Below the pieces are notes generated by a model. That model did no database searches. It had not been told where the DNA came from and saw nothing but the letters and a program-made list of their open reading frames with translations. Source: Candidatus Kryptonium thompsonii (lineage in GTDB: Bacteria > Bacteroidota > Ignavibacteria > Kryptoniales > Kryptoniaceae). Taken from it: a stretch of DNA of 64,000 bases. The translations under genes and the position numbers were made by a program. The stretch covers positions 62,001 to 126,000 of the forward strand of contig LDXX01000005.1 in assembly GCA_001442925.1 (NCBI GenBank), written 5' to 3'. Positions 19,144-25,834 of this stretch are shown here, one piece after another. Numbering within the stretch: the stretch's first letter is position 1; every line of letters begins with the position of its first letter.

Positions 19144-20292
19144 TTAAAAATACTTTAATCCAGAAGCTGTATTAAAAATAACAACAATATCATCTCTTTT
19201 TATAATCCCATCAGAAACAAGTTTTTCAAGGGCCACCGCCGTCGCTGAGCCTTCTGGGCAAAGCATAATTCCCTCAACCTCAGCCATCTTTTTCATCGCC
19301 AAAATTATATCGCTATCTTCAACTTCAACCGCAGTGCCTCCACTTTTACGAATAATCTCAAGGATCAACCTTCCAGCAAATGGCTTTGGCACACGCAAAC
19401 CATAAGCAATTGTTTTCGCATTTTCCCAGAACTCAACCTGAGTCTTTCCTTCTTTATACGCCTTAACAATTGGTGCACAACCCGAAGATTGAACTGCAAC
19501 CATTTTCGGAAACTTTCTCTCGATCAAGCCAACCTCAATTAACTCATTAATAGCAAGCCAAATCCCAATGAGACCAGTTCCACCACCCGTTGGATAAATT
19601 ATCCAATCTGGTACAACCCATCCAAGCTGTTCAACAATTTCAAACCCCAGAGTTTTCTTCCCCTGCAAACGATAAGGTTCTTTCATCGTTGAAATATCGA
19701 AAAATTCATTCCGACTTTGAACTATCCTCACAGCATCCGAAATTAGACCATCAACGAGCTCAACCTCGGCACCGTAAAATTCACATTCTTTTAAAATCAA
19801 AGACGGCGTATCCTTAGGAGCGCTTACAAAACATTTAATCCCTGCTCTAGCACAATAAGCACTTAAAGCACTTCCAGCATTTCCAGCAGTTGGCAAAGCA
19901 ACCTTATCAATCCCAAGTTCAACCGCCTTTGAAACCGCACACGATAAACCACGAGCTTTAAATGAAAGCGTTGGATTAAACGATTCATCTTTTAAAAACA
20001 AATTCTTCAACCCGAGTATGCTCCCAAATTTTTCCAACCTTAAAAGCGGAGTCCATCCCTCACCCAAACTCACAACATTTTTTTCATCGATGACGGGTAA
20101 AAATTCAAAATATCGCCACATGCTTGAAACTCTGGTTTTAAAACTATCCCTGCTGACATGTCTTTTTATCCCATCGTAATCATAAACCGCTATCAATGGC
20201 TCGTTGCAATTCTGACAAAATCTTTGCACTTGGCGATGATCAAAAATTTCCCCGCAAACTGAACATCTCAGATAAATTATAAACGAGTTCAT
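19144..20292 (-). CDS. thrC: Threonine synthase (PLP-dependent)
   Basis: Converts O-phosphohomoserine to threonine. An N-terminal zinc ribbon (CSVCG near residue 10 and CQNC near 27) precedes the fold-type II PLP domain, with the lysine in SFKARG, the phosphate loop PTAGNAGSAL and the glycine loop TGGGTGLIG. This is the shorter, archaeal-type/zinc-ribbon ThrC. The first 53 bases overlap the upstream eIF-2B-like gene. The zinc ribbon starts so early that a later start is unlikely, so the overlap looks real. Confidence 0.85.
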   Translation of the reverse strand: MNSFIIYLRCSVCGEIFDHRQVQRFCQNCNEPLIAVYDYDGIKRHVSRDSFKTRVSSMWRYFEFLPVIDEKNVVSLGEGWTPLLRLEKFGSILGLKNLFLKDESFNPTLSFKARGLSCAVSKAVELGIDKVALPTAGNAGSALSAYCARAGIKCFVSAPKDTPSLILKECEFYGAEVELVDGLISDAVRIVQSRNEFFDISTMKEPYRLQGKKTLGFEIVEQLGWVVPDWIIYPTGGGTGLIGIWLAINELIEVGLIERKFPKMVAVQSSGCAPIVKAYKEGKTQVEFWENAKTIAYGLRVPKPFAGRLILEIIRKSGGTAVEVEDSDIILAMKKMAEVEGIMLCPEGSATAVALEKLVSDGIIKRDDIVVIFNTASGLKYF

Positions 20293-21166
20293 TTTTACTT
20301 TTGTTTTTGTTTATAAAAATTCCACCGTCAGTTATATAACCTGTAATGAGATCAGAGCCAACGACTTCAAAAATGACATCAATAGTTTTAAGATTTCCCC
20401 TTTTGCCAACTGTAAAAAATTCTTTAAAATTTTTAACAGGTTTCATACGCACAAATTTTGAAAAATCGCAAAGAACCAATGTCTCTTTCCCAGCAAGCCT
20501 TGCAATTTTAAAAATTGGCGAAGTCCCAGCCTTATTCAAAATATCCCCATTTTCAAATACCGCATCGCATCCAGATACAACGAGATCAACCGTCCCCAAA
20601 ACATGATCAAGACCGAAATCATTTACCAGAAAGACATTAAAACCTAAATCCGAAAGTTTTTTCGCCATTTTATCGCCTTCACACTTGGGACACGAACGAA
20701 AAACATACACACTGGAAACCTTGTTCTTGACATGCAAAATGGCGTTCAAAACCGTTCCACTATAACTCAATGTGGCAATTGAAACCTTATTTAATCCATT
20801 TGCCTCAAGCCACCTTGAAAAATTATCCGCCACTTTCTCGCTGGCTTTTTTAAATCGTTCTTCAACAATTTTAATAACTTTAAACATATCTTCCCTTTTT
20901 GCACTACCTACCCGTTGCGTGCTTTCCCTCGCCAAAGTTAGAATTATATCAACCAGATTCTGAAGTTGAAATAAAAGCGGGTGATGTTTTTTCAAATCCC
21001 TTTTCAAGGCTTTAAGAAAATATAAAAAATCATCTTTCCTTTCAGTTTCCCGTGCTTTCTCTTTCAACACGCTGAATAACTTCCCCGCAAGGATTGAAGC
21101 CCCTGAAGTTTTATCCTCGTAAATTTTCTTTAACTTAGCATAAATCGTTGCATTACGCATAATCAA
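20240..21166 (-). CDS. eIF-2B alpha/beta/delta-related protein
   Basis: A member of the IF-2B family that includes archaeal eIF-2B-like proteins, ribose-1,5-bisphosphate isomerase and MtnA. The N-terminal 125 residues are helical, and the C-terminal Rossmann-like half carries VDLVVSGCDAVFENGDILNKAGT, matching the family's GADxxxxNGxxxNKxGT block with D retained (DAVFENGDILNKAG). The reaction is unknown. It differs from the true MtnA at 28193-29254. It is sandwiched between a lipoprotein gene (4-base overlap) and thrC (53-base overlap). A sugar-phosphate isomerase role is possible, but there is no supporting neighbour. Confidence 0.8.
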   Translation of the reverse strand: MIMRNATIYAKLKKIYEDKTSGASILAGKLFSVLKEKARETERKDDFLYFLKALKRDLKKHHPLLFQLQNLVDIILTLARESTQRVGSAKREDMFKVIKIVEERFKKASEKVADNFSRWLEANGLNKVSIATLSYSGTVLNAILHVKNKVSSVYVFRSCPKCEGDKMAKKLSDLGFNVFLVNDFGLDHVLGTVDLVVSGCDAVFENGDILNKAGTSPIFKIARLAGKETLVLCDFSKFVRMKPVKNFKEFFTVGKRGNLKTIDVIFEVVGSDLITGYITDGGIFINKNKSKNELVYNLSEMFSLRGNF

Positions 21167-21966
21167 ATCTTCCCTTTCTCCCGAGCAAAGATGAAATAAG
21201 CCGAGATAAGCACGAAGAAAGAGATCAAAGTCGAAGCTATGAAACTTTCAGATGGACTTAAACCCTCACCTTTAACAACAATCTCAGAAGGGATTTGCAT
21301 TTGAGTTGTAACTTGCTTCCGCTTAGGATAATACGCTCCCGCTTCCTTGACATTTACAATCTGAAATTCAAAATAATAATCATAAATCTCATCCTCCGTT
21401 TCAACTGGAAGATAAAGTCCGAGCTTCTTCCCTACATTCCCGTAAATTTCTTGCACTTTTTTCTCATCGTTGAAATCAACATATGGATAGAAACCAGCGA
21501 TTTCATAATCTCCTGAATTTGCAAAAACACGATCAGATGGTGCCAGATGAAGTTCAACAAAGGCATTTGGAAAAACATCAATAACATTAGAAAAACTCAC
21601 AGGGAAGTAATTAAACTCGTTCAAATAATTAAAATTTAAAGCCTTCGATGCACGAGCATTGATTAAAATCTGCGCATCGTTTAATGGAATTGAGAGCTTT
21701 TCAGCTTTCTTATTTTTCAACCGCAGATGGATAAATGATTCATCGATGACAAACTCAACAAATATGTTCAAATCGGAGAAGTAAAGCCTGTCCCTTTCAA
21801 TTGGCTTGGTAAGTTTGTAAACATACTCATATTTTCTTCCAAAGGGAAAGCTCGAATTGTTTTTAAGAGTGGTTGCTGAGTTTGCACTTGAGTTTTCTTT
21901 CAACGTCTGCTTTGAGCCACCACAACCTATTAAAAAGATGATTAAAAAAAGAAAAAATCTTTTCAT
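21163..21966 (-). CDS. Lipoprotein of unknown function with C-terminal membrane helix
   Basis: Not recognised. It has a lipoprotein signal (FLIIFLIGCGG, lipidated Cys at about residue 15), a beta-rich periplasmic body of about 200 residues, and a predicted membrane helix at the C terminus (FIASTLISFFVLISAYFIFA) followed by basic residues. A lipid anchor at one end and a membrane span at the other is unusual and suggests inner-membrane retention. It overlaps the next gene by 4 bases, so expression is coupled. Confidence 0.7.
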   Translation of the reverse strand: MKRFFLFLIIFLIGCGGSKQTLKENSSANSATTLKNNSSFPFGRKYEYVYKLTKPIERDRLYFSDLNIFVEFVIDESFIHLRLKNKKAEKLSIPLNDAQILINARASKALNFNYLNEFNYFPVSFSNVIDVFPNAFVELHLAPSDRVFANSGDYEIAGFYPYVDFNDEKKVQEIYGNVGKKLGLYLPVETEDEIYDYYFEFQIVNVKEAGAYYPKRKQVTTQMQIPSEIVVKGEGLSPSESFIASTLISFFVLISAYFIFAREKGKI

Positions 21967-21983: not shown

Positions 21984-23384
21984 TTAAAATCTATACCGCA
22001 ATGTCAAGATGAAATTCCGTATGATATTTTCTTCGTTCGTGATTAATCGGTAGTAATTATTATTAAGGACATAACTATACTGTGTATGGATTGTGCTCCA
22101 TTTGCCGTTTATGTAAGCGAAATCGATCAAAAGCGTCTTTTGTAAAAGAACGCTGAAACCAAAAGTTAACAATTTAACGGCTCTGCTTGAAACCCCCTTG
22201 TCTTCCAAATAAGGTGAAGGTCTATAACTATATCCCGTTCTAACTTTAACTTGCTTTAAAAATGGTAGCATAAATTCAACGCCAGCGCTTAAACTCACCG
22301 TTTCCGTAAACATTTCTTTTATATCCCTATTGAGACCAACTAAATCTGGATTATCTTTAAATTCCATCTGACGCCAATCAACATAAACAACATCACCAGC
22401 AACAAGAAGAACATCTTTAACATTAAACGATACCCCACCACCAAAATAAAACGGCGTAAGCACACCGTATTTCGAAACCCCAGAATAAGAATATGAATAC
22501 GAATCCCCGTTGTCAAACAAACTTTCACCAGATCTTGAATAATTTTCCCTCACACTTAAAGATGATGGCAACCTCGTCATCAACCCAAATCTGAAATAAT
22601 TACTTCTATACATTAAGCCAGCATTTGCCGAAAAACCACTTATCGTAGCATCAATTATATCTGAAACAGTCAATTGATTGAAATCCCACGGAAAGTCCCG
22701 ATAAAAATTTCTTGTATCACTTTCGACAAAACGTCTATCGTATTTGTAACTTCCTGTGACAATTGACAACGTAAGCCCCACGGACAAATTTTCAGCTATA
22801 TCAATTGCACCTGAAACAAACCAATTGTTCAATCCTCCACTTTCATAAAGTGTTAATTTTTGGTGGACATTATTTAAAATCTGTGTTTTGCCCGTTGAAT
22901 CCTCGAGCCCAAGCTTCCATGCAAGATCAAAGTCTGGGTCAGGGTCATAAAGTGATGGAACGATTGAACTTTGCGAATTAAAAAGCGAAATTGAAAGGGT
23001 ATTTGTAAAGTCAGAGACACGAACATAACCCCCAGCGAAAACCAAACTTCCACGAATAGTTGGAACAGGGAGAACGAGGGCTACGGTATTTAAACTTGTG
23101 GCGGTGTTTTCAAATGAATTTGAATAATCAAAAACCCTTGCTGAATTGGTAAGCGATAAATAATTTAAGCCACCTGCAAATTCGAATCTTCTTATCTGGG
23201 CAAGCCCTGCTGGATTCCAAAAAATTGCTGAGTAATCATCTGAAACACCAATATATGTGAAACCAAGTCCAATAGCTCTTGCGCCAACACCAGAGTTCAA
23301 TGTTGAATATCTAAGGGCATCATCAGGGAATTGTGCAAAAACAAAATTAAGCGATAAAAGTAAAACTAAAATTAACTTTTTCAT
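21984..23384 (-). CDS. OMPP1/PorV-like outer-membrane beta-barrel protein
   Basis: A 466-residue outer-membrane barrel. A signal peptide ending near FAQ is followed by the family's N-terminal block (GVGARAIGLGFTYIGVSDDY, then FWNPAGLA), typical of FadL/OMPP1 and UPF0164/PorV-like proteins of the Bacteroidota-Chlorobi group. Alternating strands run to a C-terminal aromatic-ending strand (FILTLRYRF). PorV is a shuttle in type IX secretion, while FadL relatives move hydrophobic molecules; which role applies here is open, and no other type IX gene is in the window. Confidence 0.82.
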   Translation of the reverse strand: MKKLILVLLLSLNFVFAQFPDDALRYSTLNSGVGARAIGLGFTYIGVSDDYSAIFWNPAGLAQIRRFEFAGGLNYLSLTNSARVFDYSNSFENTATSLNTVALVLPVPTIRGSLVFAGGYVRVSDFTNTLSISLFNSQSSIVPSLYDPDPDFDLAWKLGLEDSTGKTQILNNVHQKLTLYESGGLNNWFVSGAIDIAENLSVGLTLSIVTGSYKYDRRFVESDTRNFYRDFPWDFNQLTVSDIIDATISGFSANAGLMYRSNYFRFGLMTRLPSSLSVRENYSRSGESLFDNGDSYSYSYSGVSKYGVLTPFYFGGGVSFNVKDVLLVAGDVVYVDWRQMEFKDNPDLVGLNRDIKEMFTETVSLSAGVEFMLPFLKQVKVRTGYSYRPSPYLEDKGVSSRAVKLLTFGFSVLLQKTLLIDFAYINGKWSTIHTQYSYVLNNNYYRLITNEENIIRNFILTLRYRF

Positions 23385-23908
23385 CGCCTTCTCGACCCGA
23401 TGTTTCTTTTTTCACTGCTATCCTGCTTCGCCTCCTTGCCTTGATCCCTTGAGTTTTCATTCTTCCTTTCACCTAAATTTGATTTCCCATCCTTTTCCAT
23501 TGTCGATGAAGTGCTAGTTCCAGAATCCGATCCAGACTTCGGTGGTGTTCTCGTCGGTGGTGGAGGGTTAAATGAATTATTATCAGATGTTGCTCTATGT
23601 GATCCAAATTCTCTCGACCTTTCGGGGGAAGCTTCACTGCCAACTTGAACAGTGTCAACTGGACTTCCCGACCACCAAAGCCACCACGGGGTATTGTAAT
23701 AACTCCACGGAGATGAAACATGCGCTGGAACTAAATTATAAAAATAAATCATGGCCGAGGAAGAGTGGCACTCAACACAATTGCTTTTGTAAGAAATATG
23801 TGAAGTATAAATTTCACCAGACGAATCGGCAAAATTCACATTCGGATGTTTTATAACCGTGTAGCAACCAGATAACAAGATAAGAATAAAACCAAATATC
23901 TTTTTCAT
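23381..23908 (-). CDS. Lipoprotein with one CxxCH haem-binding motif and disordered tail
   Basis: Not a recognised family. It has a lipobox (LILLSGCYTV, Cys at about 15), then CVECH (residues 40-44), which fits a covalent haem c site. An aromatic patch (SPWSYYNTPWWLWWSGSP) follows, then about 90 residues of S/P/T/K/R/E-rich, probably disordered sequence. The lipobox context GCYT is shared with the next upstream gene, and both have an aromatic zone and a polar tail, so they look like a functional pair. It overlaps both neighbours by 4 bases. Whether the motif binds haem or a metal is unproven. Confidence 0.7.
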   Translation of the reverse strand: MKKIFGFILILLSGCYTVIKHPNVNFADSSGEIYTSHISYKSNCVECHSSSAMIYFYNLVPAHVSSPWSYYNTPWWLWWSGSPVDTVQVGSEASPERSREFGSHRATSDNNSFNPPPPTRTPPKSGSDSGTSTSSTMEKDGKSNLGERKNENSRDQGKEAKQDSSEKRNIGSRRR

Positions 23909-24897
23909 CTTCTATTCCCTAAATGTCTTCTATGTTCTTGGCTTTGATCTGATTGTATGAAATTACTATTTTGTCGAAGTTGGGGCTGAGGCGGTTGATT
24001 GCTTAAAGTATTTTCCCTTTGGAAATTACGTTGAGGCGGTTCAATCAATGTACTTCTTCCTGTGTTGTAATCCCTGTAAATTTGAATCGAATTTCTATTC
24101 GTCCCTGTCCTTCTTGGTTGATCTGTTCTCTGTGGCGGCGTTGAACCTTGTCTTGGTGTTTCCGAATTTCCATCACCTGATCTTGGGACAACCCTTGGTG
24201 TTGACGGCGTTCTAACAGAACCTGTCTCACGTGTTCTTTCATCCCCTCTACTTCTTTCAATTGATGGTGCTTCTCTTCCCGAGCCCGATCTCTTCTTAAA
24301 ACCTTCATCATTTGAGCTACCTTGCAAACTTCCGCTGGACTGCCCTGAAGGTGCATTTCTTGAAGGTGGAGTTAAACTTCCCGAAGTCGTGCCAGACCTT
24401 TCATCACGCGTTCCATTTCGCGTTGAGCCAAAATTTCTTGTTTTTAATATAACTGCTCCACCTGTACCGCCAGAGTAATATGGATAATTATTAACTACCA
24501 TAATTATCGGCGCCCTATACCACCATGGATAATAATACCATGTTGGAAGATACCAATATGAATACCAATAATATCTATCCCACCAATACCAATCCCACCA
24601 GTAGTAATCAAACCAATATGGATCATAATACCACCATTCACCCCAACCAATTGCAAAGCCGGGAGTGTAGTACCTAAAAAACAAAGAATATCTCGGGTAA
24701 GGTAGATAATAACGATAAATATATCTTGAGTAATACCACGCGTCGTAGTTATAATCATAGTTATAATTAGAGTAATCCCGGTATTCCTTTTCTGATTGGG
24801 ATGTTGAATAACCTTCATCTTCTTTTATAGTTCCTATCTGCGTATAGCAACCCCCAAATAAAATCCCAGCAAGCGCTATTAAAATTATTTTCTTCAT
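23905..24897 (-). CDS. Tyr/Trp-rich lipoprotein with low-complexity tail
   Basis: Not recognised. After a lipobox (GILFGGCYTQ) comes an extraordinary segment (about residues 40-145) in which Tyr and Trp make up roughly half of the residues (for example DYYWWDWYWWDRYYWYSYWY). It is followed by a short hydrophobic strand (APIIMVVNNY) and a 180-residue R/S/T/G/P/Q-rich tail. The ribosome-binding site GGAGG precedes the ATG. Aromatic density on this scale could support a surface coat, stacking or dityrosine-type cross-linking, or electron hopping next to the CxxCH partner; all are inference. The reading frame is intact, so this is not a shadow of another gene. Confidence 0.75.
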   Translation of the reverse strand: MKKIILIALAGILFGGCYTQIGTIKEDEGYSTSQSEKEYRDYSNYNYDYNYDAWYYSRYIYRYYLPYPRYSLFFRYYTPGFAIGWGEWWYYDPYWFDYYWWDWYWWDRYYWYSYWYLPTWYYYPWWYRAPIIMVVNNYPYYSGGTGGAVILKTRNFGSTRNGTRDERSGTTSGSLTPPSRNAPSGQSSGSLQGSSNDEGFKKRSGSGREAPSIERSRGDERTRETGSVRTPSTPRVVPRSGDGNSETPRQGSTPPQRTDQPRRTGTNRNSIQIYRDYNTGRSTLIEPPQRNFQRENTLSNQPPQPQLRQNSNFIQSDQSQEHRRHLGNRR

Positions 24898-24969: not shown

Positions 24970-25728
24970 TCAAAAAGACTGGATATACTCAAGCTTCACA
25001 ACCCTTGAATTTCCTGGCTCCTTGTTTTGCAAGATATCTTTCCAATTAAACTCAATTGTGAATCCACTTCCGAGTGACCATCTTATTCCAGCGTTTAAAT
25101 ATCCTTTCCCGCTTCCAAGCGCTCTCGGAGAATTATCATTTATAGCGAAGTTATATTCAACGGAAAATGTTAAATCACTCCCTATTGTTTTATCAAAACC
25201 TATGTAATAATTCAATGACGCATCGCTATCATCTTTTTCAAGGGAATAGTTAACACCACCATGGATTGATGAATAACCAAGAAACTTAAACGACTTGCTT
25301 CCAACCACAAAAAACCCTGGTGATTTAAAATCATATCTTTTCAAACTATCGATGTATCCCTCTCTACCTTGAGAATCAAACCCAATTGCAATTGCAGGAA
25401 AATTTTTGACTTCATCAATTATTCTAATTTTCAAATTTACCCCTGGCAATTTATACCATTCAACATTTCCATTTCCAATTATTTTGGAACCACCGTATGA
25501 AATTCCAAAATTCAAACGATTAAAAGCGGAAGCAGTGAGTCGAAGCATAAGTCCCCCATTTGAAAAGAAATCAGCATCAAGCGAAACACTATTTGACTTT
25601 AAAAGCCCCGCCGTCGGCATATCAACAATAAACCTCTGTTGAAAAGTTGCCTTGCTCCCAGCCGAACCCTGAGACAATAAATAACTCGAAGGTAAAATTA
25701 AAAGAAACAAAATCAAAAATCTTCGCAT
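24970..25728 (-). CDS. Outer-membrane beta-barrel protein, YjbH-like
   Basis: An exported 252-residue protein with a signal peptide (ending near LLSQGSAG) and alternating amphipathic strands through to the end (GYLNAGIRWSLGSGFTIEFN). The pattern of Leu-Thr-Ala-Ser strand and ISYGG resembles YjbH/OM-barrel families linked to envelope polysaccharide export, though similarity is weak by eye. It is first behind the strong promoter at 25763-25791 with AAGGAG before the ATG, and heads the envelope operon. Confidence 0.65.
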   Translation of the reverse strand: MRRFLILFLLILPSSYLLSQGSAGSKATFQQRFIVDMPTAGLLKSNSVSLDADFFSNGGLMLRLTASAFNRLNFGISYGGSKIIGNGNVEWYKLPGVNLKIRIIDEVKNFPAIAIGFDSQGREGYIDSLKRYDFKSPGFFVVGSKSFKFLGYSSIHGGVNYSLEKDDSDASLNYYIGFDKTIGSDLTFSVEYNFAINDNSPRALGSGKGYLNAGIRWSLGSGFTIEFNWKDILQNKEPGNSRVVKLEYIQSF

Positions 25729-25762: not shown

Positions 25763-25791
25763 AAAATAACAAAAATTTAACATCTTGTCAA
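25763..25791 (-). promoter_or_regulatory. Strong sigma-70 promoter of the envelope operon
   Basis: On the minus strand TTGACA (25786-25791) and TATTTT (25763-25768), spacer 17 bp, about 35 bases before the gene ending at 25728. A perfect -35 box makes this one of the strongest-looking promoters in the window. Confidence 0.75.
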
Positions 25792-25805
25792 TCATAAAAC
25801 AAAAA

Positions 25806-25827
25806 GGCGTGGCTAAAAAGCCACGCC
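25806..25827 (-). terminator. Rho-independent terminator of the HtrA gene
   Basis: Nine-base-pair stem GGCGTGGCT / AGCCACGCC with a 4-base loop, followed on the minus strand by TTTTTGTTTT. It lies 8 bases after the htrA stop and separates it from the envelope operon promoter. Confidence 0.85.
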
Positions 25828-25834
25828 CTCTATC

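Follow-up and report, generated by a model that had tools for sequence, protein, structure and literature searches.

The window analysed here is a 64-kb stretch of DNA from Candidatus Kryptonium thompsonii, and the positions below are those of the whole stretch. It carries a unit of four genes on the minus strand, running from 25728 to 24970, 24897 to 23905, 23908 to 23381 and 23384 to 21984, of which the last three overlap by 4 nt. The unit is separated from a DegQ-like gene by an intrinsic-terminator-like hairpin following that gene (25802–25831, minus strand; 13 pairs with a T tail). A promoter-like TTGACA-17-TATTTT site with a TG, recognized by its match to the consensus, lies at 25763–25791 on the same strand, approximately 35 nt before the first ATG of the unit. 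This succession of hairpin, promoter-like site and closely spaced or overlapping genes bears out the operon proposed in the initial annotation. The same gene block is found without the adjoining DegQ-like gene in another genome (L036) of the Kryptonia, the group to which the host belongs, with its close relatives in Candidatus Kryptonia, Chrysopegis and Thermokryptus.

The first gene of the unit (24970–25728, minus strand) specifies a small predicted outer-membrane beta-barrel of 252 amino acids which occurs at 18 of the 24 compared loci, counting the window, and retains 36–52% identity outside Kryptonia. It has weak similarity to YjbH, scoring 17.7 bits against the YjbH/GfcD model PF06082 where the gathering score is 24; weak matches to the same model were obtained with 7 of 13 members of its group, the best at 1.5e-4. 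Downstream of the unit is a gene for a 267 amino acid lipoprotein (21163–21966, minus strand) which, among the loci compared, was found in Kryptonia only. Next comes an IF-2B/ribose-1,5-bisphosphate isomerase-like protein (20240–21166, minus strand), which is found after the unit at the Kryptonia loci of the comparison, and is itself overlapped by a threonine-synthase-like gene (19144–20292), named by eye from its sequence.

The second gene (23905–24897) is the subject of this report. The coordinates given in the initial annotation are correct and the coding strand is the minus strand, where an AGGAGG sequence is situated 8 nt upstream of the ATG, confirming the ribosome-binding site claimed for it. 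The 330 amino acid product, here called CYTQ, has the signal peptide, lipobox and cysteine of a bacterial lipoprotein (residues 1–17, with LFGGC at 13–17 in the sequence LFGG-C17-YTQ), followed by an acidic linker (residues 19–50), a segment dense in tyrosine and tryptophan (approximately residues 51–141; 24475–24747, minus strand) which is the most conserved part of the protein, and a basic, low-complexity tail of some 190 residues (142–330) rich in S, T, P, G, R, N and Q and terminating in HLGNRR. The richest window of 100 residues (42–141) contains 33 Tyr, 15 Trp and 4 Phe, i.e. 52 aromatic residues, while among the 81 mechanical ORFs of at least 100 amino acids in the 64-kb stretch the median maximum per 100 residues is 14 and the next highest value is 26. 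Both compositional claims made previously are thereby upheld: about half of 100 residues (48) are Tyr or Trp, and the long tail is rich in R, S, T and P (residues 136–330 comprise R28, S27, G22, T19, P17, N16 and Q15, with just five Tyr and no Trp).

Full-length homologues of CYTQ, 58–76% identical, were found in all six of the other same-genus genomes searched. Across six Kryptonia genomes residues 51–135 show a mean identity of 82% and a pN/pS of 0.13, and the tail an identity of 54% and a pN/pS of 0.53, these ratios being rough because many pairs are close to saturation at synonymous sites. The tail is thus drifting, and strong purifying selection acts on the aromatic segment, which is about as constrained as the two neighbouring barrels (0.15 and, for the FadL-type barrel described below, 0.17). 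Given the high identity together with the low ratio, the aromatic part is kept as a sequence and not merely as a composition.

More distant relatives, 30–44% identical to CYTQ, were recovered across the phylum by single-sequence search. They share a common layout of GCYTQ, acidic linker, Y/W-rich segment with YDPWW-like motifs and basic tail, the identity of the aromatic segment being approximately 30–40% outside Kryptonia. A lipobox-like site is present in 92 of 102 family members, with CYTQ or a close variant of it in most; at more distant loci these residues are altered (CST, CAT, CGT and others). Two distant members from the Bacteroidota (L142 and L154) appear not to be lipidated, and the lipid anchor is therefore not indispensable. 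No match to Pfam or NCBIfam was obtained with CYTQ at an E value of 0.1, nor with nine diverse homologues at 0.01, so that the opinion that it belongs to no named family stands for the ten members scanned. A search of the PDB with the single CYTQ sequence gave chance-level matches only (E 0.11), and our literature searches found no description of such a lipoprotein family. AlphaFold2 with four-sequence alignments gave no usable fold, the pLDDT being 31.5 for CYTQ and 26.9 for the partner barrel; since equal alignment depth failed on the barrel also, the result is uninformative with respect to CYTQ. We conclude that CYTQ represents a new, unnamed, phylum-wide lipoprotein family of unusual composition.

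The last gene of the unit (21984–23384, minus strand) specifies a 466 amino acid outer-membrane barrel, the constant partner of CYTQ, with a PorV-like N-terminal motif and an NPA hatch. It scores 47.9 bits against Pfam Toluene_X (gathering score 29.7) and the hatch residues N57-P58-A59 are invariant, which together place it in the FadL/TodX superfamily. With a single sequence, a search of the PDB yielded nothing above chance level (E 0.16); with a profile of the barrel, the structures of TbuX and TodX were retrieved at approximately 1e-12 to 1e-13. Among the most conserved parts of the barrel are its N-terminal tail and NPA hatch, and the first 55 residues match the PorV/PorQ family of type IX secretion (1.5e-12), scoring 48 bits where the cut-off is 90. 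PorV and PorQ differ further in having another partner and another context. The possibility that the barrel is the BamG orthologue was considered and rejected: it scores 69 bits against the BamG model (NCBIfam NF053685; cut-off 250), while another gene of the same genome scores 265. That gene is found on a different contig of the host genome, side by side with one for a BamH-like lipoprotein (L130:3224-5571); the latter (L130:3224-4348) directly precedes bamG, carries the sequence CSKEPND and contains a DNRLRE domain (61 bits). The barrel is thus a relative of BamG yet distinct from it.

The association of CYTQ with this barrel, which is absent from the initial annotation, is the main clue. 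Comparison of the window with 23 further loci (one of them, L045, judged by coordinates) placed the barrel gene just downstream of the lipoprotein gene, with or without a CYTV gene (see below) in between, in all 22 loci having room on the contig, the window counted. Approached from the other side, a profile search detected the barrel, mostly in a single copy per genome, in 243 of the 395 genomes sampled from the phylum, and an aromatic-dense, basic-tailed gene was directly upstream in 78 of 80 genomes (39 of 40 diverse, 15 of 16 further and 24 of 24 more distant ones). Of the two exceptions, L076 has a flank that is cut short, and L120 is the sole barrel locus with a full flank but without an aromatic lipoprotein upstream. 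The composition class of CYTQ comprised 54 of the 589 called genes of at least 150 amino acids in 63 neighbourhoods, at most one per locus. A profile of the lipoprotein matched in 10 of 10 barrel-carrying genomes and in none of 20 barrel-less ones, which, being drawn from few families, do not represent 20 independent losses.

Between CYTQ and the barrel, the window has a gene for a second lipoprotein (23381–23908, minus strand; 175 amino acids), here called CYTV. It repeats the plan of CYTQ on a smaller scale, with a CYT lipobox, PWW, REFGSHR (LRNNDGGR-like in other members), PP(S/T)R and a basic end; in the window these are accompanied by HP and CVECH, the proline-rich motif is PPPPTR and the C-terminus is GSRRR. 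By eye, one of its motifs co-varies with that of the CYTQ from the same genome (LRDNDGGR/LRNNDGGR in L032, LRDQDGGR/LRDLDGGR in L033), but in profile comparisons the scores stayed within the range of shuffled controls, block shuffles of CYTV itself reaching up to 38 bits, and a common origin of the two proteins cannot be claimed. HP near the cysteine and CxxCH are both present in 13 of 20 CYTV members and both missing in five, two being discordant. The pattern points to a haem or metal site that not every lineage requires. In the window, where CVECH and HP are both present and might form a single-haem site, the match of CYTV to Pfam Haem_bd has an E value of only 0.099. Many CYTQ loci are without a CYTV gene. 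At another barrel-adjacent locus (L099, approximately 9 kb), CYTV and the barrel are separated by one more small lipoprotein, the third, which has 109 amino acids and the tail motif RDNDGGR...RRR.

In the Bacteroidota, lipoproteins destined for the cell surface carry an export signal of at least two acidic residues among the six that follow the cysteine (PMC12578637, PMC5080379), located at approximately +3 to +6 when the cysteine is +1 (PMC5080379). None of the 92 lipobox-bearing CYTQ members has two acidic residues at +2 to +7 (79 have none and 13 have one), acidic residues being common only from +9 onwards, while the host's own BamH-like lipoprotein does carry the signal in its CSKEPND. The family is predicted from this absence to face the periplasm, which is probably correct, though the signal was defined in Bacteroidia and the rule may differ in Kryptonia; the suggestion of a surface protein is accordingly not upheld. 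The tail has a positive net charge in all 102 family members (median +20.5) and the C-terminus is basic.

Taken as a whole, these observations are best explained if CYTQ serves one outer-membrane barrel of the FadL superfamily as its dedicated lipoprotein partner, an explanation to which we would assign a probability of roughly 0.6; most likely it is an obligate partner facing the periplasm. A physical partnership is inferred here from gene order and co-occurrence, and the linkage could instead represent co-regulation only. CYTQ would dock on the barrel through its N-terminus and aromatic segment. The latter may pack onto barrel and membrane interface alike, close to the FadL-type lateral opening, where it would stage or gate hydrophobic cargo, the cargo being a guess. 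The long cationic tail, probably disordered, would extend into the periplasm and hold an anionic partner, for which LPS, phospholipid or peptidoglycan are guesses. CYTV, having tail motifs like those of CYTQ, might be an optional further subunit. Tentatively, and with rather low expectation that every part is correct, one may picture an undescribed phylum-wide outer-membrane machine, in which a FadL-type barrel and a periplasmic aromatic "wick" carry hydrophobic molecules towards the lateral opening or away from it, with the cationic tail as a holder and a haem lipoprotein added in some lineages.

Several known systems resemble the pair in part. Channels such as FadL, TodX and TbuX are related to the barrel through Toluene_X, the TodX and TbuX structures and the conserved hatch; no dedicated lipoprotein partner is known for them. 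The SusC barrel is TonB-dependent, and SusD forms a folded lid exposed at the cell surface. They are likewise a barrel and lipoprotein pair from this phylum (PMC12578637), but neither protein resembles the barrel or CYTQ. In the tyrosine-rich extracellular loop 3 of Bacteroidota BamA, a Tyr/Gly/Asn-rich region, the role of which is unknown, likewise lies beside a FadL-type barrel (PMC12578637); this, however, is a 38-residue loop of BamA and not a lipoprotein. BamG-BamH and BamG2-BamH2 set the precedent for FadL-type barrels paired with lipoproteins (PMC12578637, PMC12611786), BamG2 and BamH2 being encoded in one putative operon in B. thetaiotaomicron (PMC12578637). The likeness lies in the combination of a FadL-family barrel with a lipoprotein; the difference is that CYTQ is aromatic-dense, has a cationic tail and, in the searches above, neither a family match nor the export signal of BamH, and that the barrel is not a BamG orthologue. 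The CYTQ-barrel pair is of a kind already known in the phylum, and it is the lipoprotein family itself which is new.

Certain of the observations may be read differently. CYTQ might be a biogenesis factor or plug, assisting the folding of the barrel or blocking its lumen, in the manner of LptE with LptD, with no part in transport. The one-to-one linkage, the position of the lipoprotein gene just ahead of that for the barrel, and the conservation of the aromatic segment and of the barrel's N-terminal tail and hatch are all compatible with this reading; we consider it unlikely since the aromatic segment varies between classes more widely than a lumen plug should, and the 200-residue cationic tail is left unexplained. 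Less probable again is an additional BAM-like module, in which the barrel would be a BamG paralogue and CYTQ a BamH-like cap assisting the assembly of outer-membrane proteins. The BamG model does match 16 of 18 barrels (best 6e-22), and the gene order resembles that of the host's true BamG and its BamH-like neighbour; against this are the low score of the window's barrel beside that of the true BamG, the missing export signal and family match of CYTQ, and the more distant barrel orthologues, five of six having no NCBIfam match at 1e-8 and the sixth a weak one to PorV/PorQ.

The idea of an adhesive, cross-linking or electron-carrying aromatic protein at the cell surface, with its CxxCH-containing neighbour CYTV as redox partner, is quite improbable. 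It draws on the extreme Tyr/Trp content and on the adjacent CVECH with its co-occurring HP, but it does not predict the nearly universal tie to a FadL-type barrel, no member has the export signal, and electron transfer finds no support in CYTQ itself; the CxxCH of CYTV is missing in several lineages that keep CYTQ, and many loci lack CYTV altogether. A spurious or non-functional reading frame, which low-complexity sequence and overlapping open frames might bring to mind, is ruled out for practical purposes by codon-level purifying selection and by homologues of the same composition in same-genus genomes and across the phylum.

A pair of genes lying side by side throughout a phylum, usually in single copy and tightly co-occurring, normally represents one machine. 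In the Bacteroidota, lipoprotein-barrel pairs serve feeding (SusCD) and the building of the outer membrane (BamGH), and the CYTQ-barrel pair would add another. Its lipoprotein has so far escaped notice because a protein of such composition is beyond the reach of ordinary homology searches. Two anonymous genes are thus turned into a testable question, namely what cargo the barrel handles and why its partner should be made of tyrosine and tryptophan.
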